64,000 bases of DNA from Rhabdothermincola sediminis (GTDB lineage Bacteria > Actinomycetota > Acidimicrobiia > Acidimicrobiales > Acidimicrobilacustridaceae): assembly GCF_014805525.1 (NCBI RefSeq), contig NZ_JACFSZ010000007.1, positions 62,001 through 126,000 on the forward strand. Direction: 5' to 3'. Of this stretch, positions 12,699-57,263 are shown one piece after another (position 1 is the first letter of the stretch; every line of letters begins with the position of its first letter). Both the position numbers and the translations under genes were made by a program. The notes below the pieces were generated by a model, which did not search any database, was not told the origin of the DNA, and saw only the letters and a program-made list of their open reading frames with translations.

Positions 12699-13388
12699 AT
12701 GATCGTCTCGCACCAGCACCGCTTCGTCTTCGTGAAGACCCGCAAGACCGCCGGCTCGAGCATCGAGGCGGCCTTGAGCCCGATCGCCGGCCCCGACGCC
12801 GTGGTCACCCCCCTCCTCGAGGAGCTGCCCGACCACCGGCCGCGCAACTGGCGGGCCAGCTTCAACCCCGTTCCCGAGCTGCTGGCCAACCCGCGAGCCG
12901 CTCGCTGGACCCTGAAGCAGTGGCGGCGCCGCATGGCCTTCTATAGCCACCTCCCGGCCGAGCCGGCCCGCCTCCGCCTCGGTCGAGACCGCTGGGACCA
13001 GTACTTCACGTTCTGCTTCGAGCGCGACCCGTGGGACAAGGTCGTGTCGATGTACTTCTGGAACACCCGCCAGGACCCCTCGCCCCCACCGTTCGAGGTG
13101 TGGGTGGAACGCCGGCGGCGGGAGCTGAGCGACTGGCACCTGTACACCCGCCGGGGGCGGATCATCGTCGACTTCGTGGGCCGGTTCGAGCGGCTGGAGG
13201 CCGACCTGCGCGCCGCGCTCGACCAGGCCGGCGTGGCGGATCCGATCGAGCTGCCCCGGCTCAAGTCGGGCACCCGGCGCGGACCGGTCGCCTTCACGCC
13301 TCGTGCCCGGGAGATCGTCCTCGATGTCTTCGCTCGGGAGTTCGAGGCGTTCGGCTACCCGACCGAGCCTGCGAGTGTTCAGCAGTGA
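12699..13388 (+). CDS. Sulfotransferase family protein, paralogue of 503-1216 (229 aa)
   Basis: PAPS loop KTRKTAGSSIEAAL lies near residues 13-26 and the 3'-phosphate segment YFTFCFERDPWDKVVSMYFW near 104-123. The protein matches the one encoded at 503 along its whole length, including the first seven residues and the C-terminal EFEAFGYP, so the two are recent paralogues with probably related but different acceptors. The gene begins 12 bases after the ABC exporter and ends in a four-base overlap with the next glycosyltransferase, so it belongs to a plus-strand operon running from 9769 to 15288. Confidence 0.85.
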   Translation: MIVSHQHRFVFVKTRKTAGSSIEAALSPIAGPDAVVTPLLEELPDHRPRNWRASFNPVPELLANPRAARWTLKQWRRRMAFYSHLPAEPARLRLGRDRWDQYFTFCFERDPWDKVVSMYFWNTRQDPSPPPFEVWVERRRRELSDWHLYTRRGRIIVDFVGRFERLEADLRAALDQAGVADPIELPRLKSGTRRGPVAFTPRAREIVLDVFAREFEAFGYPTEPASVQQ

Positions 13389-14623
13389 GCGACCGGTCCC
13401 GATCCCTGGTGGCGGTCATGCCCCGCCCCCGGACCGCCTGGCCCAGCGCGGCCGGGCTCTGGGTCACCGCCGCGGGCTGGGCGGCGGCGGGCGAACGCTG
13501 CTTCGGTCGCGGCTGGGTGGTCACCCCTGACGCCACGGCCTCACCGGAAGAGGCGGTGGGCTTCGCCACCGCCCACTACACCTCGGCCACCCGATCATCA
13601 CCGCGCGACAGGCTCATGCCGCCGGTGGTCCGGACCGCGGTGAAGGACACGCTCCAGTACCGCTCGATCCACCGCTTCGCGGTCGGGGCGGGCCCGTGGG
13701 ACTCAACACCGCCAGCGCTCGTCTGGCAGCACCATGAGATCTGCCACCGCGCGGGGATCGACCTCGCGCAGCGTGCCGGTTGCCCGGCGGTGGTCTTCGT
13801 GCACGCCCCCCAGGTGTGGGAAGCACGCCAGTGGGGGGTCCGGCGTCCCGGGTGGGGCTCCCTGCTGGAGCGGTTCGGCGAATCGCCCGCTCTGCGCCGG
13901 GCCGACGCGGTGGCGTGCGTCTCGGAGGAGGTCGCCACGCTGGTGGTGGACCTCGGCGCCGATCCCGGGACGGTGGTCGTCACCCCGATGGCCGTGGACC
14001 CCGAACGCTTCCACCCCCGGGTGTCCGGCAAGCCCGTCCGCGATCGCTACGCCCTGGGGGAGGCGCCGGTCGTCGGATGGTGCGGGAACTTCCGGCGCTT
14101 CCACGGGCTCGAGCAGGCCGTGGAAGGCTTCGCCCTCGTCCACCGCCGGCAGCCCGATGCTCGCTTGCTGCTGGTCGGTGACGGCCCGGAGCGGCGCCGG
14201 ATCGAGGCGCTGGTACAACAGCTCGGGCTGGGCGAGGCCACCCGCTTCACCGGTGGTGTGCCCCACGTGGAGATGGCCGCTCACCTCGCGGCCATGGACG
14301 TCGCGTGGGTGCTGGCCCAGCCCGGCGAAGCCTTCCACTACTCCCCTCACAAGATGCGTGAGTACCTGGCCTGCGCGGTGCCGGTGGTGGCTCCCTCGAT
14401 CGGTGACGTGGCCCGGGTGATGCACGACGGCCTCGACGCCGTGCTGTACCCGCCCGGTGACGTGGGCGCCCTCGCCGAGGCCACGCTGGAGCTGCTGGCC
14501 GACCCGGACCGCCGGGGGCGCATCGGTTCGGCGGGTCGCGAGCTGATGCTGCGGGAGGGCACCTGGGACGCGCAGCTCGCCAAGGTGACGACCCTGCTCG
14601 GAATCCCCCGGGGCGCGACATGA
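13385..14623 (+). CDS. GT4 family glycosyltransferase (412 aa)
   Basis: The start GTG overlaps the stop of the preceding sulfotransferase. The donor domain is clear: PVVGWCGNFRRFHGLEQAV, then LLLVGDGPERRRIEAL, then FHYSPHKMREYLACAVPVVA, where the usual glutamate-rich loop has the SPHKMREY form seen in WcaL/teichuronic-type transferases. The acceptor domain has WQHHEICHRAG near the middle. It adds a sugar at the cytoplasmic side. It is coupled at both ends to sulfotransferase genes, which hints that the sugar it adds is one of those sulfated. Confidence 0.84.
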   Translation: MSDRSRSLVAVMPRPRTAWPSAAGLWVTAAGWAAAGERCFGRGWVVTPDATASPEEAVGFATAHYTSATRSSPRDRLMPPVVRTAVKDTLQYRSIHRFAVGAGPWDSTPPALVWQHHEICHRAGIDLAQRAGCPAVVFVHAPQVWEARQWGVRRPGWGSLLERFGESPALRRADAVACVSEEVATLVVDLGADPGTVVVTPMAVDPERFHPRVSGKPVRDRYALGEAPVVGWCGNFRRFHGLEQAVEGFALVHRRQPDARLLLVGDGPERRRIEALVQQLGLGEATRFTGGVPHVEMAAHLAAMDVAWVLAQPGEAFHYSPHKMREYLACAVPVVAPSIGDVARVMHDGLDAVLYPPGDVGALAEATLELLADPDRRGRIGSAGRELMLREGTWDAQLAKVTTLLGIPRGAT

Positions 14624-15288
14624 CCACCGCCTCCGCCACCGCCCGCAAGCTGGCCCGCCGGGTCGACCGCCGGCCGCGCTACAACTACACGGTCTCCCGG
14701 GCCCACGGCTTCGTCTACTACCGGGTGGCGAAGGTGGCGACCCGCTCCATCTCGGCCTGGCTCCGGGAGCTCGACCCCGAGCCCGTCTACCTCACCGGAC
14801 GCCCCGCACCCTTCGACCCGCTCCACCGCCTGTTCCGCTTCGGGTTCGTCCGCAACCCCTGGGACCGCCTGGTGTCGTGCTGGCTCGACAAGGTGATCGG
14901 TCCCACCGACTACTGGCGCGACACCCCCCTGAAAGGCCTCCCCTTCGACGCCTTCGTCCACCAGATCGCCACTTGGGACCTCGACACCTGCGACCGCCAC
15001 GTCCGCCGGCAGGCCGCGCTGCTCCCCCCGAAGGGGCTCGACTTCGTCGGGCGCTTCGAGCACCTCGACGCCGACGTGGCTCGGGTCGCCGACCGCCTCG
15101 GCCTGCCCGCCAGCGGGCTCCCCCGGCGCAACACCAGCTCGGACCGCCAGAGCTACCACGCCTACTACACCCCCGAGCTGGCCGACCTGGTGGGTCGGCT
15201 GTACGCAGTCGACGCCTCGCGCTTCGGCTACACCTTCGGCGGGATCGCCACCGAAGGCAGTGAGACGGACAGCACGCGCGGCGCTTGA
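14620..15288 (+). CDS. Sulfotransferase family protein, HNK-1-like (222 aa)
   Basis: The segment FVYYRVAKVATRSISAWLRE (near residues 31-50) is the PAPS loop in the K-x-A-x-x-S form of HNK-1/chondroitin-type sulfotransferases. FGFVRNPWDRLVSCWLDK (near 74-91) is the 3'-phosphate site with its conserved R and S. FVGRFEHLDADVARV further on matches the FVGRFE motif in the sulfotransferases at 503 and 12699. The ATG overlaps the preceding stop by four bases. The acceptor is not identifiable from sequence. Confidence 0.84.
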   Translation: MTTASATARKLARRVDRRPRYNYTVSRAHGFVYYRVAKVATRSISAWLRELDPEPVYLTGRPAPFDPLHRLFRFGFVRNPWDRLVSCWLDKVIGPTDYWRDTPLKGLPFDAFVHQIATWDLDTCDRHVRRQAALLPPKGLDFVGRFEHLDADVARVADRLGLPASGLPRRNTSSDRQSYHAYYTPELADLVGRLYAVDASRFGYTFGGIATEGSETDSTRGA

Positions 15289-15324: not shown

Positions 15325-16956
15325 GTGGCGTTCGACCCAACCCGGCTCCAGGTACTCGACTGCACGCTGCGGGACGGCGGCTACTACAACGCATGGGACT
15401 TCCGCCCCTCGCTGGTGGAGCGGTACCTCGCCGCGGTGGATGCCGCCGGGGTCGACGTGGTGGAGATCGGGTTCCGCAGCTACCCGCAGCCGAAGTTCCT
15501 CGGCCCCTTCGCCTACTCGACCGACGAGCTGCTCAGCGGACTCAAGCTGCCGAAGGCGACGATCGGGGTCATGGCCAACGCCTCCGACCTCCTGTCCCGC
15601 GGCGGTCCCGCGCCGGAGGCGGTCGACGCACTGTTCCGGCCGGCCGACCTCTCACCGGTGTCGCTGGTGCGGCTCGCCGCGCACCTCCACGAGGTCAGCG
15701 GGTGCCAGCCGATCGTGGAGCGGCTCCGCGAGCTCGGCTACCGGGTGGGGCTGAACCTCATGCAGGTCAGCCGCTCCAGCGGGGAGCAGCTGACCCAGCT
15801 GGCGGCCACCTGCGAAGCGTGGGGGTCGGTGGAGGTTCTGTATTTCGCCGACTCGCTCGGCAACATGACCGCCGCCGACATCGCCGCCTGCATCACCGCT
15901 CTCTCGGCAGGCTGGTCCGGACCGCTCGGCATCCACGCCCACGACAACCGGGCACGGGCGTTGACCAACACGCTCGCCGCCGCCGAGCTGGGCGCCACCT
16001 GGCTGGACGCCACGGTGCTGGGCATGGGTCGGGGCGCGGGGAACGTGCGCACCGACTTCCTGCTCTTCGAGCTGGCCCAGATGGGATGCGATCGCTACCG
16101 GCCCGAAGCACTGCTCCCCGTGGTGCTCGAGGACTTCGGCCGCCTCCAGGAGCAGTACGGCTGGGGCACCAACCTGCTGTACCTGATGTCGGCCGCGTAC
16201 GACATCCATCCCACCTACGTGCAGCAGATGATCGGGGACGGTCGCTACGAGACCGCGGACATCGTCGCCGCCCTGAAGAACCTCCGCACCCTCGAGGGCC
16301 ACTCGTTCAGCACCGAGCGTCTCGGCCAGGCGGTGGCGGCCAGCGGTGATGAGGGAACCGGTACCTGGTCGGCCGACGGGTGGCTCACCGGCCGTGACGT
16401 GCTGGTGATCGGGGCGGGGCCGAGCGCCGAGCTCCACCGTGAGGAGCTGAACCGGTTCATCGCCCGCGAGCGCCCGGCGGTGCTGTGCCTCAACACGACA
16501 TCCACGGTGGTCAGCGACGAGATGGTCTCGGCCTTCGTGGCGTGCAACCCGTCGCGCATCATGCTCGAGTCCAGCCGGCTGGCGGGGCTCCGCCGGCCGC
16601 TGCTCGCGCCGCGGCCGACGATCGACGCGCTCGTGGGCGGTGAACGCCTCGACAGCGTGGAGGTCCTCGACTACGGCCTGCGGGTGGAGGCAGGGCGATT
16701 CGACATCGGTTCCTCGGGCTGCGTGCTGCCCGCCCGCCTCGCCGTCGCCTACGCGATCGCGGCCGCGACCGCTGGTGGGGCACGGCGCATCCTGCTCGCC
16801 GGGTTCGACGGCTACCGGGCGGGCGACCCGAGGCAGGAGGAGATGGTCGAAGTGCTCCGCGCCTACGAGGAGTCTGGACGGGTGGTGCCTCTCATCGCCA
16901 TCACGCCGAGCACCTATCCCGTCCAGCAGAGCTCCGTCTACGCCCCCACCATCTGA
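15325..16956 (+). CDS. HMGL-type aldolase fused to GAGPS-motif (DUF115-like) domain (543 aa)
   Basis: The N-terminal 300 residues are a DRE-TIM aldolase of the HMG-CoA lyase/4-hydroxy-2-oxovalerate aldolase superfamily. LDCTLRDGGYYNAWDF (near 11-26) is the substrate and metal motif, and HAHDN at 204-208 carries the metal-binding histidines. From residue 359, VLVIGAGPSAELHREEL starts a second, Rossmann-like domain that resembles the MptE/DUF115 and GT42 folds. The natural chemistry of the superfamily is pyruvate-type carbon-carbon bond cleavage or formation. Directly downstream are a CMP-sugar synthetase and a sialyltransferase-like gene, so I infer that it builds a 2-keto-3-deoxy acid sugar. 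The substrate is unproven, and so is the function of the second domain. Confidence 0.75.
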   Translation: MAFDPTRLQVLDCTLRDGGYYNAWDFRPSLVERYLAAVDAAGVDVVEIGFRSYPQPKFLGPFAYSTDELLSGLKLPKATIGVMANASDLLSRGGPAPEAVDALFRPADLSPVSLVRLAAHLHEVSGCQPIVERLRELGYRVGLNLMQVSRSSGEQLTQLAATCEAWGSVEVLYFADSLGNMTAADIAACITALSAGWSGPLGIHAHDNRARALTNTLAAAELGATWLDATVLGMGRGAGNVRTDFLLFELAQMGCDRYRPEALLPVVLEDFGRLQEQYGWGTNLLYLMSAAYDIHPTYVQQMIGDGRYETADIVAALKNLRTLEGHSFSTERLGQAVAASGDEGTGTWSADGWLTGRDVLVIGAGPSAELHREELNRFIARERPAVLCLNTTSTVVSDEMVSAFVACNPSRIMLESSRLAGLRRPLLAPRPTIDALVGGERLDSVEVLDYGLRVEAGRFDIGSSGCVLPARLAVAYAIAAATAGGARRILLAGFDGYRAGDPRQEEMVEVLRAYEESGRVVPLIAITPSTYPVQQSSVYAPTI

Positions 16957-16959
16957 CCC

Positions 16960-17697
16960 GTGGGACGAACGGTCATCGTCATCCCGGCCCGGTACGAATC
17001 CTCACGCTTCCCGGGCAAGCCGCTCGCCCTGCTGGACGGCACGAGCCTCATCCAGCGCACCTGGCAGCAGTGCGTCGCAGCTCTGGGACCGGATGACGTC
17101 TACGTGGCTACCGACGACGACCGCATCGAGTCGCACTGCCGGGACTTCGGCGCGCAGGTGGTGCTCACGCCGACCACCTGCCCCACCGGCACCGACCGGG
17201 TCTACGCCGCCTCGGAGCAGATCGACGCCGAGGCCTTCGTGAACGTCCAGGGCGACGAGCCGCTCGTCGACCCAGCCGACATCCTCGCGGTCATCGCCGC
17301 GTCGCAGGCTCATCCCGGCGAGGTCGTCAACGCGATGTGCCCCATCGATGACGAGTCGACCTTCCGCGACCCCAATGTCCCCAAGGTGGTGAGCGCTCCG
17401 GACGGCCGGCTGCTGTACATGTCCCGAGCCGCCGTCCCCACCGGCAAGGACCTCGGGTTCCGCGGTGCGTGGCGGCAGGTGTGCGTGTACGCGTTCCCGA
17501 CCCCGGCGCTCAAGCGCTACGCCAACCACGGCGGCAAGACACCCGTCGAACAGATCGAGGACATCGAGATCCTGCGCTTCCTCGAACTCGGCATCCCGGT
17601 GCGCATGGTGGCGGTCTCCTCCGCCTCGCTCGCCGTGGACGTGCCCGGGGACATCGCGCGGGTCGAAGCCGAGCTGCGGCGGCGAGGCCACCGATGA
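16960..17697 (+). CDS. kdsB: KdsB-like CMP-ulosonate cytidylyltransferase (245 aa)
   Basis: The protein matches 3-deoxy-manno-octulosonate cytidylyltransferases in length and motifs: IPARYESSRFPGKPL (residues 8-22) binds CTP, NVQGDEPLV (about 94-102) binds metal and sugar, and VEQIEDIEILRFLELG is the family's C-terminal signature. The reaction joins CTP and a ulosonic acid to give CMP-sugar and pyrophosphate. The GTG start lies three bases after the aldolase stop. No kdsA, kdsD or lipid A gene is in the window and an actinobacterium has no Kdo-containing LPS, so the natural substrate is probably another ulosonic acid made by the aldolase next door. The gene symbol marks homology only. Confidence 0.85.
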   Translation: MGRTVIVIPARYESSRFPGKPLALLDGTSLIQRTWQQCVAALGPDDVYVATDDDRIESHCRDFGAQVVLTPTTCPTGTDRVYAASEQIDAEAFVNVQGDEPLVDPADILAVIAASQAHPGEVVNAMCPIDDESTFRDPNVPKVVSAPDGRLLYMSRAAVPTGKDLGFRGAWRQVCVYAFPTPALKRYANHGGKTPVEQIEDIEILRFLELGIPVRMVAVSSASLAVDVPGDIARVEAELRRRGHR

Positions 17698-17704
17698 GCC
17701 GGCC

Positions 17705-18823
17705 ATGACCAGCCCGGCGGTCGTCGTCTACCACGTCCAGACGCCGTACCACACGTTGCAGGCCCTCGGCCTCGCCGCCACGGACGGCGCCACCTCGCAG
17801 CTCGTGGCCGTTCCCAGCCACCCCTCCCAGGCGATCCTGCTCGACGCGCTCGGCGACCTACCGGGCTCGCCGTTCGGCGCGATACGCCGGCTCGACGCGG
17901 TCCGACCCGGGCTGGAACGGCTCCCCCCGACCCTGGCGCGGCGCATCTCCGCGGCGGGCAACGCACGCCGGCTCCACCGCTCGGTGGCGAACCTCGGCGA
18001 AGCAGTCGAGGTGCGGACCGCCAACGTGCAGACCGTCGAGGGCCGTGCGCTGGCGGCTGCAGCGGTCGCCACCTCCGGGCGGGTGGGCGTGATCGAGGAC
18101 GGGTTGCTCACCTACGAGAAGCGCTACGTGGCTCCGGCGCCGCGGGGCGGGGTCCGACCGGCCCTGGCGCGCTGGTGGCGCCAGCTCGTGTTCGGCCGAT
18201 GGGCCGGGACACCCGCGGGGGTCATCCCCTACCGGGAGCTCGACGCCCTGTGGGTGTCGTTCCCCGATGCGATCGACCCCGGCGCCTGGCCCGGGGTGCC
18301 CGTGCGCCCGCTCCCTGACCCCGCGGGTGCGCGCCCGTTGCTGGAGGCGCTGGCCTCCGCGGTGATCGGCCCCGACCAGCGAGACGTGTACCGCCGGCTC
18401 GACACCGTCCTGGTGCTGCCCCACTCGGCGATGCTGGGCGGGAGCGCCGCGGTCGACGCCCTGGGGCGCCTGGTGCGCGGCCTCGTGGGGAGCGGCCTGG
18501 TGGTCGGCGTCAAGCGCCATCCCCGGGACGACCCGGCCACCCTGGACCGGGTCATGCCGGCGGCCGTGACTGAGGTCGAGCCGTGGTTGCCGGTCGAGCT
18601 GCTGTTCCTCCTGCCGCGCTCGTCGCTGCGCTGGATCGTCACCGACCGCACCACCGTGGTCCTCTCGGGGCCGCGCTACTGCCCCGACGCCACGACGATC
18701 ACCTTCTCGAACGACGTGCCTCCCGAGGCCCGCGACGCCTACGAGCGGCTCATGCAGGCCACCGGCGGCGTGCTGGTCGACTCCCCGGACGGGGTGCTGG
18801 CCGCCATCACCAGCCGGAGCTGA
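17705..18823 (+). CDS. Sialyltransferase-like CMP-sugar transferase (372 aa)
   Basis: The N-terminus AVVVYHVQTPYHTLQALGLA resembles the first strand of bacterial polysialyl- and GT52-type transferases. Two short motifs shared by bacterial sialyltransferases of GT38/GT52/GT80 are visible at the right order and spacing: the acidic-acidic-glycine motif as VIEDGLLTYEK (129-139, E131-D132-G133), where the aspartate is the catalytic base, and the HP motif as VKRHPRDD (269-276, H272-P273), which binds CMP. It starts seven bases after the CMP-sugar synthetase gene, which strongly suggests it uses that product. Which ulosonic sugar it transfers, and whether it polymerises it, are not known. Confidence 0.65.
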   Translation: MTSPAVVVYHVQTPYHTLQALGLAATDGATSQLVAVPSHPSQAILLDALGDLPGSPFGAIRRLDAVRPGLERLPPTLARRISAAGNARRLHRSVANLGEAVEVRTANVQTVEGRALAAAAVATSGRVGVIEDGLLTYEKRYVAPAPRGGVRPALARWWRQLVFGRWAGTPAGVIPYRELDALWVSFPDAIDPGAWPGVPVRPLPDPAGARPLLEALASAVIGPDQRDVYRRLDTVLVLPHSAMLGGSAAVDALGRLVRGLVGSGLVVGVKRHPRDDPATLDRVMPAAVTEVEPWLPVELLFLLPRSSLRWIVTDRTTVVLSGPRYCPDATTITFSNDVPPEARDAYERLMQATGGVLVDSPDGVLAAITSRS

Positions 18824-18833
18824 CCCGTCGCTT

Positions 18834-19706
18834 TCACGCTGGCTGCCGGGGCCATGGCGACTCGGACCAGCCCAGCATGGCCATGAGCGCCTCGGTGTCC
18901 CGCTCGAGCAGCTCGCGCACCGCCGGAGGGATGGGCTGCTCGGCGGCCGCCAGCCTCGCCCTGGCCTCCGGGCCCTGCCGGACGAGCACCCGCTGACCCA
19001 ACCGCCGCAGAGGGGTGGGCACCCGGTCCGCGTGGCGCAGCAGGCCACGCCGGCGGATGGACCGTGCCAGCGGGGTGAACTGGCGTTCCTGGTCGGTCAC
19101 GTTGTGCGCGCCCGCCGGCCGCGGGATGGGCTCGAGTCCTAGGTGCTCGAGCACCGCCTCCCAGGCCCGGCCCTCACCCGATACCAGTTCCTCGAACACC
19201 ACCACGAGCAGCTGCGAGCCAAACCGGTCGTAATAGGGCCGCAGGACCTGCGCGTATCGGGAGCGGCCGACGTAGGGGTTGCCCGGCTCGCTCACCACCT
19301 CCGCCAGCGGCTGCTGCTCCCGGCCGCGCTGCGCCCAGTACCGGTAGTGCGACCGCAGCCGCTCGACGGGATCGCGCAGCACGCAGACCAGCCGGGCCTC
19401 CGGCGCGGCCATGGCGATGCGGTCGCAGGCCCGCTGGGCGTGCTCGGGGTAGGTGTAGCGCACGGACGCCTCCCCGGTCACCACCGAACCATCCGCACGG
19501 TTCCAGAGACCCTGATAGGCCGCCCAGGCGCCGGCGAGGGGGCGGTCGCCGGCGAAGTTCGCCTCGTCGACGAAGAAGTTCGGCTCCTTGAGCGGCGTCT
19601 CCGCCACCACGGGATGGGCCTCGAGCCACCGGAACAGCGAGGTGGTGCCCGCCTTCATGGCCCCGATGACGAGGAAGTGCGGTGGCGGTGCCGGGTCGAG
19701 GTCCAT
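18834..19706 (-). CDS. Sulfotransferase family protein, heparan-type (290 aa)
   Basis: HFLVIGAMKAGTTSLFRWL (residues 10-28) is the classic 5'-phosphosulfate loop and LVCVLRDPVERLRSHYRYW (near 106-124) the 3'-phosphate site with R and S, as in heparan-sulfate N- and 3-O-sulfotransferases. KEPNFF after the first helix matches the usual acceptor-side segment. It is convergent with the sialyltransferase-like gene (ten bases between stops) and divergent from a GT4 gene. It is one of two sulfotransferases of this longer class here; the other is at 20900. The acceptor is probably a sugar of the surface polymer. Confidence 0.87.
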   Translation of the reverse strand: MDLDPAPPPHFLVIGAMKAGTTSLFRWLEAHPVVAETPLKEPNFFVDEANFAGDRPLAGAWAAYQGLWNRADGSVVTGEASVRYTYPEHAQRACDRIAMAAPEARLVCVLRDPVERLRSHYRYWAQRGREQQPLAEVVSEPGNPYVGRSRYAQVLRPYYDRFGSQLLVVVFEELVSGEGRAWEAVLEHLGLEPIPRPAGAHNVTDQERQFTPLARSIRRRGLLRHADRVPTPLRRLGQRVLVRQGPEARARLAAAEQPIPPAVRELLERDTEALMAMLGWSESPWPRQPA

Positions 19707-20899: not shown

Positions 20900-21775
20900 T
20901 CACGCGCCCGTCCAGGACCGGGGCACGCCTCCGAGGTGGGCTGCCAGGGCAGCGGTGTCCGGCTCGATCCGCGCCCGAACCCACTCGAGCACGTCGGGTG
21001 CCCACGTCGGTGAGGGGATGGGCCGGGCCGTGCGATCGCGGACCCAGGCCTTCACCGCTCGTGCGGCCCGAGAGCTGCGCGACATGCGATTCAACCGCTC
21101 CAGCGCTGCGCTACGCCGCAGCAGCCGCAATGCTCCGGCCTCACGCCGCTTGTCCGCGGAACGGTTGCGCACCACCCCAGCCACCGGGGCCGGCACGGGG
21201 CCGACGCCGAGGTGCGCGCAGCACGCCGCCACCACCCCGTCGGGATCGCTCCGCAGATCGTCGAAGAAGACAACCAGGATCTGCTCGTCCGGGAACACGG
21301 CCCGGTACTCGCTGAGCTGCTTCCAGTACAGGCTGGCGTCCAGCAGCTCGGGTACCTCGCGCACCGCGACGTTGAAGTCGTCGGGGATGTCGGTGCGCCG
21401 CTCGCTGCGGTACTGCACCCATGCGGATTCGATACGACGCAACGGCTCGCGGAGGCTGTAGATGATCCGGGCTCGGGGGTTGGCTGTCGCGATCCGCTCG
21501 GCCACGCCGGGGTACACGGCGCACTGCGAATAGATGGTGCTCCCCTCGAGGCGCAGCGCCGGCGGCGACCATCCGGGGAAGCAGCGTTCGTAGGCTCGTT
21601 CGAGCACATCGAGGGGCTTGTCCTTGCGCAGCACGCCGGGTTCCTTCGGCGAGCTCACCTGGATCACGGGATGGCGGCCGAGCAGCTCGCACAGCGTGGT
21701 AGTGCCGGCTCGGTGGGCGCCCACCAGGAAGGCCTCGGGGACTGGGGGAAGCCCCGCCGACGCGCCGCCGGTCAT
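20900..21775 (-). CDS. Sulfotransferase family protein, heparan-type (291 aa)
   Basis: FLVGAHRAGTTTLCELLGRH (residues 15-34) is the PAPS loop and IIYSLREPLRRIESAWVQYR the 3'-phosphate segment. SSPKEPGVL follows the first helix, as in the protein at 18834. The ATG at 21773-21775 overlaps the stop of the DUF4012 gene (ATGA), so the longer frame upstream is not used. Coupling to DUF4012 suggests that the two act on the same polymer. Confidence 0.85.
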   Translation of the reverse strand: MTGGASAGLPPVPEAFLVGAHRAGTTTLCELLGRHPVIQVSSPKEPGVLRKDKPLDVLERAYERCFPGWSPPALRLEGSTIYSQCAVYPGVAERIATANPRARIIYSLREPLRRIESAWVQYRSERRTDIPDDFNVAVREVPELLDASLYWKQLSEYRAVFPDEQILVVFFDDLRSDPDGVVAACCAHLGVGPVPAPVAGVVRNRSADKRREAGALRLLRRSAALERLNRMSRSSRAARAVKAWVRDRTARPIPSPTWAPDVLEWVRARIEPDTAALAAHLGGVPRSWTGA

Positions 21776-24138
21776 GGCAGGCGCGACAGGTCGGCTTCGA
21801 GCACGGTGATCTGGCGGGGCTCGATCCGGATGGCTGCGGAGCGCCCCCCACTCGTGATGCCGAACCCCCGGGCCGACTCGACCAACCAACCCTTCGCCGG
21901 CTGCACGGTGGCGATCACGTCGTCGGGGTTCACGACTGGCTGCGGGCCGACCACCAGCCGGTACTCGGCTCCCGTGTCGAGCGACCCTTCGAGGTCGAGC
22001 TCGATCTGGACCGAGCCGCCCGGCGGGATCTCGAGGAACCTGGAGTACACGGCCCAACCGAGCTCCCGCTGGAACTCCAAGCCGATCCGTTCCCCGTCCA
22101 GGCGTGCTTCCCGGAGGTGATGCGGGGTGTAGAAGGAGAAGTACAGCACGTTGGTACCGAGCGGGTACCCCTGGTCGTTGTTGCCGATGATCGCATCGGG
22201 GAGCCCGGACGAGGGTGCGCCGTTGCGGAGCGTGACCGTGGCGGTGGCCTTAAGCACACCGGTGTGGGGGTCGTAGCTCGCTCGGTAGTCGACGGTGCGT
22301 TCGAGGAACGAGTCGATCTTGTTGTTGCCCTTGTTCTGGGTCACGACCATCAGTCCGTCGCCGCCCTCGGGCCGCGGCGCCCGACCGGCGACCCCCAGGT
22401 GCTCGAAGAACCGTTCCTCGGCGGGATCGAAGGCGAAGACCATGAGCCGACGCTCGGCCACCGCGGGACCGAGGGCGGCACCGAGCTTCCGTGGGCCGGG
22501 CAGCGTGCCGTTCACGAGTTGGTCGAAGGTCTCTCGGCCGACCTGCTCCAAGAAATCACGCCGCTCGCGGGAAGCGCCGAACTGGATGTACTGGTCACGC
22601 ACCAGGAACTGCGCGACGTTCTCGGCGGTCAGGCGCTCGGGTGCCCCTTCGACCCGGATCGGCCCGGTGAGCTTCAACAAGGCCGCCAGGCCGTAGGGGT
22701 CGGCGACGATCACGCCGTCGACCGGGCGCCCACCGGCCTGGGGATACAGCTCGGCCATGACCGAGGCGACGGTCGGCATGTCCGGAGCGAACGACGTGTC
22801 CTGGAGGTACTCCCATGGTCGGAAGCGGCCGTAGCGGGCCAGGTACTCCGGTGGGCCGGTCAACCGGCGCTGCTCCCGGCCGGGCGCGGTGAGCAGCTCG
22901 TTGATCGGCCCCGACTCGGTCAGGTCCAGGTCACCGTCGGTCGCCCGCAACTCGGCCCAACTCCCGATGAAACCCCCGAGACCGCGGGCCTCGGCCGGCT
23001 GAGTGAACAGCACGAGGTAGTGGCGGGTGCCCTCCCCGCCGAGCAGCCCCGGGGCCACCGCGGCGGCCTCGGCCGCCAGCTCCACGTCGCCGAGGGTGCC
23101 GGCCACATCCGCGGCCAACCCATCCACCCGATCGCGGATGGGCCCGACCAGCCAGGGTGAGGCGGCCCGGTCGAGCCGGCCAGAGGCGACCGCCATCACG
23201 GAGGCCGCGTGCTCCAGTGGCTCCCGGGTCGCGGCCAACCGGCCGAGATCGATGCGGCCCGAGGTGTAGCGGATCTTCTCCAGGTCGGCGGACACCGCGA
23301 CGTCACCTGCCGCTCCGGCCACCTCCGCGGCCTGACCGGTAGCCACCTCGAGGGCCTCCGCGTGCTGCGCGAGCACCGGAACCACCCTCGCCGGTCGAGC
23401 CCACCAGGCTCCGAGCACGCGGTGTGACGATGCCAGCGAGCGGGTAGCCGACTCGAAGAGCGCGGCAGCCGCCTCCTGATCGCCGTCGCTGGCCGCGTCC
23501 AGACCCTCTCTGGCGTGCTGCACGCCGTCGTGCACCCCCGACCACGCCAGCGCCACCGAGGCTCCGAACACCGCCAGCCCCACCCCGCAGACGGCCGCGC
23601 CGGCGAGGGCACACCGGTGGACCAGGCGCCGGCGGCGGCGAGGGAGCAGCAGGTAGCCCGAGACCAGCACCGGTGCGACGGCGACCGCGGTGTACAGCGA
23701 GGACGAGCCGTGGAAGCCGAGGTCAGGCAGGCGGAGCAGGACCTGCACGGCCAGCGCCCCGACGACCGCGCCGATCGCCCGCCGACGCGACATCAGCGCG
23801 CCGGCCACCGACGCGGCCAGGGCGATCGCCGCGACGGCGGTGGTCACCGCGGTGCCGGCCGCGATCGCTGCCAGACCGGCCACCACGAACCAGGTCCAGC
23901 GGCGAGCCCGAGCCGCGGCGAAGGTGACCACGGCGGCGAAGCCCGCGGCGAGGAGCACGTCGACCGCTCGGGTGCCCGTCGGTGCGGCCTCACTGAAGCC
24001 ACCCCCGATCGCCGCCAGCACCGCGCAACCTACGATGACCCGCCGTTCCAACGGCGTCGACGGCTTCGACGACGCTCGAGCTGAGCGTCCGGACGGGGCG
24101 CCCCGGGAACGTCTGGTTGTGGTGACCGTCGATGCCAA
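21772..24138 (-). CDS. DUF4012 multi-pass membrane protein (788 aa from TTG start)
   Basis: The C-terminal 550 residues match DUF4012: a coiled-coil-like stretch, then LVLFTQPAEARGLGGFIGSW, MPTVASVMAELYPQAGG and VDGVIVADPYGLAALLKLTG, with VVTQNKGNNKIDSFLERTVD further on. The N-terminal 200 residues hold about five or six membrane helices (for example RVIVGCAVLAAIGGGFS and AALALSVAGAL-type segments), then a short external part. DUF4012 proteins occur in actinobacterial and Chloroflexota polysaccharide loci; their biochemical role is not established. The start is uncertain: a TTG at 24138 is used here, and a GTG at 24309 is in frame. The frame continues open to 25560, but that part is antisense to the next gene. 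Confidence 0.75.
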   Translation of the reverse strand: MASTVTTTRRSRGAPSGRSARASSKPSTPLERRVIVGCAVLAAIGGGFSEAAPTGTRAVDVLLAAGFAAVVTFAAARARRWTWFVVAGLAAIAAGTAVTTAVAAIALAASVAGALMSRRRAIGAVVGALAVQVLLRLPDLGFHGSSSLYTAVAVAPVLVSGYLLLPRRRRRLVHRCALAGAAVCGVGLAVFGASVALAWSGVHDGVQHAREGLDAASDGDQEAAAALFESATRSLASSHRVLGAWWARPARVVPVLAQHAEALEVATGQAAEVAGAAGDVAVSADLEKIRYTSGRIDLGRLAATREPLEHAASVMAVASGRLDRAASPWLVGPIRDRVDGLAADVAGTLGDVELAAEAAAVAPGLLGGEGTRHYLVLFTQPAEARGLGGFIGSWAELRATDGDLDLTESGPINELLTAPGREQRRLTGPPEYLARYGRFRPWEYLQDTSFAPDMPTVASVMAELYPQAGGRPVDGVIVADPYGLAALLKLTGPIRVEGAPERLTAENVAQFLVRDQYIQFGASRERRDFLEQVGRETFDQLVNGTLPGPRKLGAALGPAVAERRLMVFAFDPAEERFFEHLGVAGRAPRPEGGDGLMVVTQNKGNNKIDSFLERTVDYRASYDPHTGVLKATATVTLRNGAPSSGLPDAIIGNNDQGYPLGTNVLYFSFYTPHHLREARLDGERIGLEFQRELGWAVYSRFLEIPPGGSVQIELDLEGSLDTGAEYRLVVGPQPVVNPDDVIATVQPAKGWLVESARGFGITSGGRSAAIRIEPRQITVLEADLSRLP

Positions 24139-53904: not shown

Positions 53905-54921
53905 ATGAAGGTCGACGGAGGACTCGGGCTCGCGCTCACACTCGACAACATCGTCCAGCAGGCACAGGATGGGGAAGCGGCCGGCTACGACGGCTTCTGG
54001 TCGGCGGAGACCAGCCACGACCCGTTCTTCCCGCTGCTGCTCGCCGCCGAGCACACCGAGCGCATCCAGCTCGGCACCGGCATCGCGGTGGCGTTCGCCC
54101 GCAACCCGATGATCACCGCCAACATCGGCTACGACCTGCAGGTCTACTCGAAGGGCCGGTTCCTGCTCGGCCTCGGCTCGCAGATCAAGCCCCACATCAC
54201 CAAGCGCTTCTCCATGCCCTGGTCACACCCCGCCGCTCGTATGCGCGAGTTCGTCCAGGCCATGCGCGCCATCTGGGAGAGCTGGGACACCGGCGGCAAG
54301 CTCGACTTCCGAGGCGACTTCTACACCCATACGCTGATGACGCCGTTCTTCAACCCCGGTCCGAACCCCTACGGCCCACCCAAGGTGTTCCTCGCCGCCG
54401 TGGGCGAGAAGATGACCGAGGTGGTGGGCGAGGTGTGCGACGGGATGCTCTGTCACGGCTTCACCACCGAGCGCTACCTGAAGGAGGTCACGCTCCCCGC
54501 GCTCGATCGGGGCCTGGCCCGTAGTGGCCGCACCCGGGAGCAGCTCGAGCTGTCGCTGCCGGCGTTCGTGGTGACCGGCACCAACGAGGAGGAGATGGCC
54601 GCCTCTGCCAAGGGGGTCCGCCAGCAGATCGCCTTCTACGGCTCCACCCCCGCCTACCGGCCAGTGCTAGCCCTCCACGGCTGGGGTGATCTGCAGGACG
54701 AGCTGAACGCGCTGTCCAAGCAGGGAGAGTGGGTCGAGATGGGCGAGCTCATCGATGACGAGATCCTGCAGGCGTTCGCGGTGGTGGCCGAACCGGACCA
54801 GCTCGCCGCGGGCTTGCTCGCCCGCTACGGCGGATTGGTCGACCGCATCAGTTTCTACGCCCCTTACAAGGCCGCGCCGGAGACCTGGCTGCCGGTGATC
54901 GCGGCGCTCAAGGCCGGCTGA
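53905..54921 (+). CDS. LLM-class F420-dependent oxidoreductase (338 aa)
   Basis: KVDGGLGLALTLDNIVQQAQ and GYDGFWSAETSHDPFFPLLL give the luciferase-like TIM barrel. RIQLGTGIAVAFARNPM and GRFLLGLGSQIKPHITKRFS are typical of the TIGR03617-type F420-binding subgroup of actinobacteria. It probably transfers hydride to or from coenzyme F420 on an unknown substrate. The ATG is the start; a much longer upstream frame is antisense to the permease gene. The last 14 bases overlap the convergent phosphatase gene. Confidence 0.87.
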   Translation: MKVDGGLGLALTLDNIVQQAQDGEAAGYDGFWSAETSHDPFFPLLLAAEHTERIQLGTGIAVAFARNPMITANIGYDLQVYSKGRFLLGLGSQIKPHITKRFSMPWSHPAARMREFVQAMRAIWESWDTGGKLDFRGDFYTHTLMTPFFNPGPNPYGPPKVFLAAVGEKMTEVVGEVCDGMLCHGFTTERYLKEVTLPALDRGLARSGRTREQLELSLPAFVVTGTNEEEMAASAKGVRQQIAFYGSTPAYRPVLALHGWGDLQDELNALSKQGEWVEMGELIDDEILQAFAVVAEPDQLAAGLLARYGGLVDRISFYAPYKAAPETWLPVIAALKAG

Positions 54922-55564
54922 GCAGCAGCTCTCGCAGTTCGGCCACGGTCTCGACCACGTGGTCGGCGCCGGCGTCCTCGAGCTCGCTGCGGGGGCCGTA
55001 ACCCCACAGAACGCCGATCGAGGCGACGCCGAGGTGCCGGGCCGCGATGACGTCGTGCTCGCGGTCACCGACCATCACCACCCCCTCCGGGGAGCGGACC
55101 CGAAGCTCCCTCAGCGCGTGCTCGATCACGTCCCGCTTGGTCTGGCGGTCGCCGGTGTAGTCGGCGCCGGCCACGAACGCGAACCACGAGGTGAGACCGA
55201 AGTGGTCGAGCACCGTCATCGCCGTGGGGGTGGGCTTGGAGGTCGCCACCGCCAGGGACGCACCGGCCCCCGTGAGCTCGGCGAGCAGCTCGGGCACCCC
55301 GTCGATGACCCGGTTCTCGAAGGCCCCCCGCTCCGCGACGTACTCCCGGTAGGCGGCGACCGCCACCGACAGGGACGGTTCCGTGAGACCGAGGTAGCGG
55401 GCGAAGCCGTCGTGTGCCGGTGGCCCGATGAGGATGTCGAGCGAGTCCCGGTCCTCGACGGTCATGCCGATCGTCGCCAGGGCCCGCTCGAGCCCGTTGA
55501 GCAGCCCCTCGCGAGGGTCGGTGAGGGTGCCGTCGAGGTCGAACAGCACCGTGTGGTAGCGCAT
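54908..55564 (-). CDS. HAD-family phosphatase, Gph-like (218 aa)
   Basis: All four HAD motifs are visible: HTVLFDLDGTLTDP (I), LAVATSKPTP (II, with the Ser/Thr), the lysine in DRQTKRDVIEHAL (III) and VVMVGDREHDVIAA (IV). The alpha-helical cap with GPPAHDGFARYLGLTE places it near phosphoglycolate phosphatase/pyrophosphatase (Gph/PpaX). It hydrolyses a small phosphate ester in the cytoplasm; the substrate is a family-level guess. TACGCT lies ten bases before the ATG. Confidence 0.85.
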   Translation of the reverse strand: MRYHTVLFDLDGTLTDPREGLLNGLERALATIGMTVEDRDSLDILIGPPAHDGFARYLGLTEPSLSVAVAAYREYVAERGAFENRVIDGVPELLAELTGAGASLAVATSKPTPTAMTVLDHFGLTSWFAFVAGADYTGDRQTKRDVIEHALRELRVRSPEGVVMVGDREHDVIAARHLGVASIGVLWGYGPRSELEDAGADHVVETVAELRELLLSRP

Positions 55565-55610
55565 GACCTCGCCGAGCGTACTGCCGGCGACCGCACCGGC
55601 CGCCGGCAGC

Positions 55611-57263
55611 TCAGTGAACCGGTTGCAGCTCCCGGCTCAGGTACTTCGCTCGACAGAGGCTGCGCTGCAACTTGCCCGAGGAGGTCTTGGGCAAGGTCCC
55701 TGGGGTGACCAGCACGATGTCGTGGGGCGGGGCGCCCACCACCTCCATCGCCCGGTGGTGGACCAGCCGGCGCAGGCCATCGGGATCGTCGGCGCGACTC
55801 TCGGCCACGACCACCATCTGCTCCTTGCCCTTGGCCCCTTCCACGCCGAAGGCGATCACGTTGCCGGCCCGGACCCCGTCGATCTCAGCCACGGCCCGCT
55901 CGACGTCCTCGGGGAAGATGTTGCGGCCCCCGATGATGATCACGTCCTTGATGCGCCCGCACAGCACCAGCTCCCCGCCGACCAGGTAGCCGAGGTCGCC
56001 GGTGCGCAGCCAGCCGTCCCGGAACATCGCCGCGGTGGCCTCCGGGTTGCGGTAGTAGCCAGGGGTCACCGACGTGCCACGGATCTCGAGCTCGCCCACC
56101 TCCCGCTCCGCGAGCGGCCGGCCGCTGTCGGGGTCGGCGATGCGGATCTCCAGCCCGGGCAGGGGCCGGCCCAGCAAGGCGAACTCCCGGGTGCCCTCAG
56201 CGGCAGGCTCCGCGGGCGCGGCGTAGCGCTCCGACTCCAGCACCCGGCGGTCCACCGCGTCGGTGCGCAGGCCGCGCATCGGTTCGGGGAAGGTGCCGCC
56301 GATGGCCAGCTCGGCCATGCCGAAGGCCGGGAAGATGGCCCCGGGACGCAGGCCGAACGGCGCTCCCGCTTCGACGAAGGCCTCCACGGTGCGAGGGTCG
56401 ACCGGCTCGGCGCCGTTCAGCGCGATCCGCAGCGAGGACAGGTCGAGATCGGTGGCTCGACGCAGCGCGCGGGTGGCCAGCACCCACGAGAAGTTCGGCC
56501 CCGCGGTGACGGTGCCCCGGTGGTCGGAGATCCATCGCATCCAGCGGGCCGGGGAGCCGAGGAAGTCCTGCGGCGCGCCGAGCACCAGGTCACGCCCGGT
56601 GGTCATCGGGATGCTCAGCATCCCCACCAGGCCCATGTCGTGGTAGAGGGGCAGCCAGGACACGAACACGTCGTCGTCCTGGAGCTGGCCGGCTTCGATG
56701 CAGGCGTCGAGGTTGGCGCCGAGCACCCGCTGGGGCAGCATCACCCCCTTCGGCTCGGAGGTGGAGCCGCTGGTGAACTGCAGGATCGCCAGAGCGTCGA
56801 GGTCGTCGGCCGGGCGCTGGTACGCGCCGGCCCCGAGCCGCGTGCCGACCTCGATGAGCTCGGTGAGCACCAGCGAGGGCGGATCGCCCGGCCGGGACTC
56901 CAGGTAGGGTGCGAGATCCGGGTCGATCAGCAGAAGGTCCGTGTCGGCCCGGCGCACCCGCTCGCGGGTCTGGGCGATGAACTCCTCGATGGAGGCCAAC
57001 CGCATCGGCAGGGGCAGCACCACGATGGTGGCGCCCGCCAGCCAGGTGGCCTGGATGGCGGTGACCAGGGCCCGGGTGGTCGGAGCCAGGATGGCCACAT
57101 GCCGCCCGGGGCCGATGCCACGGTGCTGCAGCGCCGCCGCGGAGGCCCGGGCCTCGTCGTGGAGTTGGGACCAGGGGACCGCGATCGAGGTGTCGCCGGA
57201 GACGAAGGTGACGGTCCCGCCCGAATCAGCGGCGCGCTCGAGGCGCGAGAGAAGACTCAGCAT
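55611..57263 (-). CDS. Fatty acyl-AMP ligase, FAAL-type (550 aa)
   Basis: LQFTSGSTSEPKGVMLPQ is the ATP motif, and VFVSWLPLYHDMGLVGML and NGAEPVDPRTVEAF are strongest in fatty acyl-AMP ligases rather than acyl-CoA ligases. LRTGDLGYLVGGELVLCGRI with GRNIFPEDVE is the hinge, and LPKTSSGKLQR carries the catalytic lysine. FAALs activate fatty acids as acyl-adenylates for loading onto carrier proteins of lipid or polyketide pathways. No carrier protein or PKS gene is adjacent, so the partner must lie elsewhere. An acyl-CoA ligase is the alternative. Confidence 0.85.
   Translation of the reverse strand: MLSLLSRLERAADSGGTVTFVSGDTSIAVPWSQLHDEARASAAALQHRGIGPGRHVAILAPTTRALVTAIQATWLAGATIVVLPLPMRLASIEEFIAQTRERVRRADTDLLLIDPDLAPYLESRPGDPPSLVLTELIEVGTRLGAGAYQRPADDLDALAILQFTSGSTSEPKGVMLPQRVLGANLDACIEAGQLQDDDVFVSWLPLYHDMGLVGMLSIPMTTGRDLVLGAPQDFLGSPARWMRWISDHRGTVTAGPNFSWVLATRALRRATDLDLSSLRIALNGAEPVDPRTVEAFVEAGAPFGLRPGAIFPAFGMAELAIGGTFPEPMRGLRTDAVDRRVLESERYAAPAEPAAEGTREFALLGRPLPGLEIRIADPDSGRPLAEREVGELEIRGTSVTPGYYRNPEATAAMFRDGWLRTGDLGYLVGGELVLCGRIKDVIIIGGRNIFPEDVERAVAEIDGVRAGNVIAFGVEGAKGKEQMVVVAESRADDPDGLRRLVHHRAMEVVGAPPHDIVLVTPGTLPKTSSGKLQRSLCRAKYLSRELQPVH

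Follow-up and report, generated by a model that had tools for sequence, protein, structure and literature searches.

Candidate CMP-ulosonate pathway with an HMGL-type aldolase in a surface polysaccharide locus of Rhabdothermincola sediminis

Can a bacterium build an ulosonic acid for its surface glycans with an aldolase that belongs to neither of the known synthase families, which to our knowledge are all phosphoenolpyruvate (PEP)-dependent enzymes of the NeuB/KdsA type? The question is raised by a 64,000-nucleotide stretch of Rhabdothermincola sediminis (contig NZ_JACFSZ010000007.1, positions 62,001 to 126,000; hereafter the window), in which three co-directional genes of the forward strand occupy positions 15325-18823. 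An initial annotation had read them as an HMGL-type aldolase fused to a GAGPS-motif domain, a KdsB-like CTP transferase and a protein with sialyltransferase motifs, and had proposed that together they yield a new acidic sugar. Inspection of the open reading frames (ORFs) bore out three adjacent open genes, spaced 3 and 7 bases apart, and all of the motifs it had named (LDCTLRDGG, HAHDN, GAGPS, IPARYESSRFPGKP, NVQGDEP, IEDG and KRHP) were found in the sequence. Our analysis indicates that these genes are probably a working part of a pathway for a cytidine monophosphate (CMP)-activated ulosonate destined for a surface polysaccharide, with an unrelated aldolase as the synthase.

Gene 1 (15325-16956, GTG start, 543 amino acids) matches PF00682 and no other Pfam family (2.9e-26), and its nearest PDB sequence is 3dxi, a putative aldolase of Bacteroides vulgatus (1.1e-44), followed by 4-hydroxy-2-oxovalerate aldolases. 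An AlphaFold2 model built from a 40-sequence alignment (predicted local distance difference test score 93.3, predicted template modelling score 0.79) placed 3DXI and the DmpG-type 4-hydroxy-2-oxovalerate aldolases first in a Foldseek search, the latter at E about 1e-17 to 1e-18; a comparison with 4-hydroxy-2-oxovalerate aldolase had been proposed in the initial annotation. The aldolase TIM-barrel domain spans approximately residues 1-256 (15325-16092) and carries the R-D and H-x-H residues of the HMGL/DmpG (DRE-TIM) metallolyase superfamily, in an LRDGG motif (15367-15381) and an HAHDN motif (15934-15948). Arg16, Asp17, His204 and His206 do not vary in any of the 40 aligned members, nor do Gly18, Gly19 and Asn208, and by analogy with DmpG the first four would bind substrate and metal and be catalytic, with Asp17 and the two histidines as metal ligands. 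The protein scores 99.2 bits against the 4-hydroxy-2-oxovalerate aldolase equivalog TIGR03217, far below the curated cut-off of 286, and finds no match among the KdsA and NeuB synthase models TIGR01362 and PF03102. On these profile and motif matches, gene 1 is predicted to encode a metal-dependent pyruvate aldolase of an uncharacterised subfamily within the HMGL/DmpG superfamily, in keeping with the fused aldolase first proposed.

Gene 2 (16960-17697, GTG start, 245 amino acids) matches PF02348 (3e-36). Its 278 bits against NF009905, a subfamily model for CMP-Kdo synthetases, clear the cut-off of 255, and its 126 bits against the strict kdsB equivalog TIGR00466 fall short of 155. Its nearest PDB sequence is the 3-deoxy-manno-octulosonate (Kdo) cytidylyltransferase, or CMP-Kdo synthetase, 1gq9 (1.1e-38). 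The KdsB-like assignment made at the outset agrees with PF02348 and NF009905, and gene 2 is predicted to be a KdsB/KpsU-like cytidylyltransferase serving as a CMP-ulosonate synthetase.

The pairing of these two activities extends far beyond the window. In a scan of one genome per species, relatives of the fused aldolase turned up in at least 585 stretches, of which the best 80 were kept; these came from Pseudomonadota (including SAR11), Actinomycetota, Bacillota, Bacteroidota, Omnitrophota and Prochlorococcus; homology to gene 1 runs along its full length in about 75 loci. When neighbors were counted at loci flanked on both sides by 3 kb or more, a same-strand cytidylyltransferase lay within 6.5 kb of 63 of the 66 fused aldolases and was adjacent in 56, the only three exceptions being SAR11 loci. 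By comparison, none of the nine unfused aldolase relatives with equal flanks had such a neighbor, and the background was 14 cytidylyltransferases in 793 kb of flanking DNA. Across genomes the aldolase-cytidylyltransferase pairing is strongly non-random. A HAD phosphatase accompanies 54 of the 66 fused aldolases, and annotated Leisingera plasmids carry the aldolase, a 3-deoxy-manno-octulosonate cytidylyltransferase and a HAD hydrolase in that order. The proposed three-gene co-occurrence stands for the first two genes and fails for gene 3, which is specific to this locus and not a conserved member of the module; the conserved third member is the HAD phosphatase. E. coli genomes, searched with a Brenneria aldolase gene for a strain whose glycan is known, gave no match. 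As far as our searches reach, the module is real, non-random and uncharacterised, and no description of it was found in the literature searched.

Viral sequences supply strong independent evidence that the two activities share a pathway. Among 63 aldolase-bearing viral contigs, 39 (21 clusters at 90% identity) encode the aldolase and the cytidylyltransferase as one polypeptide, and a further 11 encode the cytidylyltransferase as a separate gene. Both fused domains were Pfam-confirmed in two examples, one of which, L165, matches PF00682 at 4.1e-27 and PF02348 at 2.8e-45. In this contig (3013-5707) and the near-identical L167 and L168, the fusion is preceded, with gaps of a few bases, by a HAD-like gene and a GT29-family sialyltransferase that scores 50.4 bits against a family cut-off of 23. 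Matches in deposited phage records span just one half of the protein, and no such fusion was found there. The union of both domains in one chain strongly suggests that the aldolase and the cytidylyltransferase serve a single pathway ending in CMP-sugar transfer. Fusions also occur in L153, L157 and others.

The genome of R. sediminis (3.29 Mb, estimated 100% complete) was searched for a conventional synthase that could supply gene 2 with its substrate, and neither NeuB nor KdsA was found. Because both are missing, the window aldolase is the only ulosonate-synthase candidate found in this genome. The idea that an HMGL-type aldolase takes the place of NeuB/KdsA is supported in this organism and does not carry over to most others, in which the aldolase is usually an addition: KdsA is present in 32 of the 35 other carriers, and NeuB is lacking in 15 of the 35. 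Since most carriers keep a separate KdsA, the module there amounts to a second, dedicated set, which points to a sugar other than Kdo; the product in most other carriers is probably not ordinary Kdo. The original picture was of a new acidic sugar in a Gram-positive-type cell without lipopolysaccharide; the module resides mostly in Gram-negative bacteria, and alongside KdsA. What does endure from that picture is the coupling of an HMGL-type aldolase to CMP activation, borne out by the conserved pairing, the viral fusions and the lack of NeuB and KdsA in the window genome.

A four-step route would accommodate these observations. The gene 1 aldolase would join pyruvate, as its enolate, to an aldose that is probably phosphorylated, and so form a 3-deoxy-2-ulosonic acid or its phosphate. 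The phosphate would then be stripped by a HAD phosphatase, whose gene neighbors the aldolase in most other loci and not here. Gene 2, given its close family match, would then use cytidine triphosphate (CTP) to form the CMP-sugar, and the C-terminal domain of gene 1, the gene 3 product, or both in turn, may move the sugar from CMP to the growing glycan.

The gene 3 product and the C-terminal domain of gene 1 are the candidates for the final transfer. Gene 3 (17705-18823, ATG start, 372 amino acids) encodes an orphan with sialyltransferase-type motifs, a putative GT-B ulosonate transferase. The D/E-D/E-G and HP motifs are common to bacterial sialyltransferases of families GT38, GT52 and GT80 (PMC4202792), and the gene 3 protein carries both in order and at plausible spacing, as IEDG (18092-18103) and KRHP (18512-18523). 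When the gene 3 sequence was shuffled 200,000 times, the motif pair with its spacing came up in 82 shuffles, so its occurrence by chance is unlikely; the pattern appeared in 4 of 719 similar-sized ORFs neighboring the cassettes, and two of those four are Pfam-confirmed sialyltransferases of the Shewanella abyssi locus L093. That locus combines the cassette with GT52/POLYST-type and GT80/PM0188-type sialyltransferases, in a genome in which no NeuB was found. Profile searches of gene 3 against Pfam (even at E 10) and PHROGs gave no match, GT38, GT52 and GT80 included, and searches against NCBIfam and the PDB gave nothing credible. Genome contigs, viral contigs, plasmids and genomes from the same phylum (396) and class (395) were searched and yielded no credible relative. 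Short matches at E 1e-4 to 1e-2 proved to be fragments and were discarded as relatives. An hhalign comparison against POLYST-type proteins of Streptomyces gave a probability of 0.25% and was not informative, and a single-sequence AlphaFold2 model (score 37.8 on the same local distance scale) was unusable for fold. On its two motifs, gene 3 is a candidate sialyltransferase. We lean slightly towards gene 3 as the putative transferase of the ulosonate.

The C-terminal domain of gene 1 (approximately residues 350-543; 16372-16956), which runs from the GxGPS motif to an LAGFDGY motif, offers a second candidate. PF01973 (MptE-like) is matched by 16 of 36 members at E up to 0.1, with a best value of 3.1e-6, and the window protein itself scores 13.2 bits against it, below the cut-off of 34.6. 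Both the GxGPS and the LAGFD end can be aligned (E 0.14) with 8sd5, a 6-hydroxymethylpterin pyrophosphokinase of solved structure, and the fold matches of the domain include several MptE-like proteins. This weak but repeated similarity suggests a resemblance to the MptE-like family, and it agrees in kind with the earlier suggestion that the fused domain is a first transferase or a binding module. The MptE-like superfamily includes the Maf nonulosonate transferases. Nonulosonic acid transfer is the role attributed to Maf proteins (PMC4065374). It is conceivable, if somewhat doubtful, that the MptE-like domain is itself the CMP-ulosonate transferase and that gene 3 encodes an unrelated glycosyltransferase or some other enzyme, a variant of the pathway proposed above. 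Besides the family resemblance, one member matches PHROG 4603, a phage alpha-2,3-sialyltransferase family, at 0.0057, 11 of the viral fusions have a protein with a GxGPS ... GxD pattern nearby, and gene 3 lacks relatives. A single transferase with a fixed acceptor would, however, be unexpected across loci of such differing glycans, the viral fusions manage without this domain in the same chain, and acceptor or CMP binding by the domain is putative.

Several considerations weigh against a dedicated CMP-ulosonate pathway as a whole. Most of the co-occurrence data derive from the 80 top matches among at least 585 and contain related genera, which do not count as independent; the profile used to recognise cytidylyltransferases was itself made from these loci, although the two members tested do match PF02348. 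No HAD-IA phosphatase lies beside the window pair; a search of the window genome for the cassette HAD, run without a positive control, gave no match at E 0.01. The assignment of gene 3 as a transferase is putative, and no biochemistry on any module member was found in the literature searched, which was incompletely covered. Finally, neither the window genome nor the Candidatus Microthrix and Prochlorococcus carriers yielded a KdsA. This last point favors a rival explanation in which the aldolase, though not homologous to KdsA, takes its place and condenses pyruvate with arabinose 5-phosphate to ordinary Kdo-8-phosphate, so that the enzyme would be new and the sugar would not, and the passing score of gene 2 against NF009905 and its proximity to 1gq9 agree with it. 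We nevertheless regard it as unlikely: a second synthase would be needless in the 32 of 35 carriers with KdsA, gene 2 misses the stricter kdsB cut-off, and the window genome yielded no arabinose-5-phosphate isomerase above the family cut-off. Less likely still is a reading in which the aldolase acts on another small molecule, perhaps one resembling an amino acid or a precursor of a side group, and has no more than an operon in common with a CMP-ulosonate synthetase fed from elsewhere. Unfused aldolases do adjoin SDR, aminotransferase and HAD genes without a cytidylyltransferase, and the fused aldolases of the three exceptional SAR11 loci adjoin a B12 radical-SAM gene likewise, but the viral fusion joins both activities in a single chain and the window genome, in which neither KdsA nor NeuB was found, offers no other ulosonate source.

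The proposed CMP-ulosonate pathway can be set beside known systems. It shares with the KdsA-KdsC-KdsB route to CMP-Kdo the logic of a synthase, a HAD phosphatase and a KdsB-type cytidylyltransferase, and gene 2 falls in the KdsB/KpsU group; KdsA uses PEP, whereas the synthase here would be a metal-dependent HMGL-type aldolase outside the KdsA family. With the NeuB/NeuA pathways, including those for the Kdn/Pse teichulosonic acids of Actinobacteria, it has in common a pyruvyl-type 3-deoxy-ulosonate, CMP activation and sialyltransferase-like partners, and differs in its aldolase superfamily and in the lack of any NeuB family protein in the window genome. Ulosonic acids of Gram-positive walls, the teichulosonic acids, are already known. 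DmpG/BphI (TIGR03217) has the same fold and, by analogy, the same catalytic residues as gene 1, but no aldehyde dehydrogenase partner was seen with gene 1, whose setting is surface-sugar biosynthesis rather than aromatic catabolism. BVU_2661 of B. vulgatus matches the family profile at E 8.8e-93, which puts it in the same aldolase subfamily, but is known from structure alone, 3DXI being titled as the N-terminal domain of a putative aldolase, and no paper on it was found in the literature searched.

In a quick tree the window aldolase fell into a clade of 19, strongly supported, that also takes in proteobacterial and Omnitrophota sequences, and away from L022 and L023, two other fused members from the same phylum; no close relative was found among 60 related genomes, and horizontal gain of the gene is likely. 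The nearest relative is L049, which, like L048 and L086, has a longer cluster downstream of the aldolase encoding an LdpA-like 4Fe-4S protein, a HAD_2 hydrolase, an HpcH/HpaI-type aldolase and a cytidylyltransferase. The window's only HAD match is weak and far from the cassette (54911-55636); the HAD_2-type hydrolase there, at 54908-55564 on the reverse strand, matches the cassette HAD family only weakly. At L088 (11691-13280), and as family 15 in L050, L051 and L053, a B12-binding radical-SAM protein adjoins the fused aldolase, and C-methylation of the sugar is possible; in SAR11 this neighbor occurs with no cytidylyltransferase nearby. Marinobacter cassette loci (L055, 13506-14780; L072, 11636-12913) encode a 424-amino-acid family without a Pfam match whose sequence (GPVP ... 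EIDGFDVVVKF) recalls GT29/GT42 sialyltransferases.

Immediately upstream of the three genes, in the same co-directional run, lie a sulfotransferase (14620-15288; PF03567, 1.7e-16) and a GT4-type glycosyltransferase (13223-14623, start approximate; PF13692, 1.1e-23), both on the forward strand. The wider locus also encodes more glycosyltransferases and sulfotransferases, an ATP-binding cassette (ABC) transporter and a polysaccharide deacetylase, and because these surround the three genes we read it as a surface polysaccharide locus. Five sulfotransferase-family genes in this one locus (53-1216, 12699-13388, 14620-15288 and, on the reverse strand, 18834-19706 and 20900-22057) suggest that the window glycan is a sulfated surface glycan.

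Kdo, sialic acids and other ulosonic acids shape the encounters of bacteria with hosts, phages and each other. The fused aldolase is present in several SAR11 and Prochlorococcus single-cell genomes (L062, L070, L101, L102, L104, L110 and others). The module thus occurs in these ocean lineages and, in viruses, as a single fused enzyme, once together with a viral sialyltransferase. We judge the chances to be even that it stands for a whole class of surface sugars, widely distributed among bacteria, whose synthase is an HMGL-type aldolase dependent on pyruvate where NeuB and KdsA depend on PEP; these sugars would be activated with CMP and would include an ulosonic acid not yet described chemically. 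If this is true, bacteria would possess a second, unrelated family of ulosonate synthases with its own CMP-sugar pathway, and genome surveys based on NeuB and KdsA would overlook many producers, abundant ocean bacteria among them.

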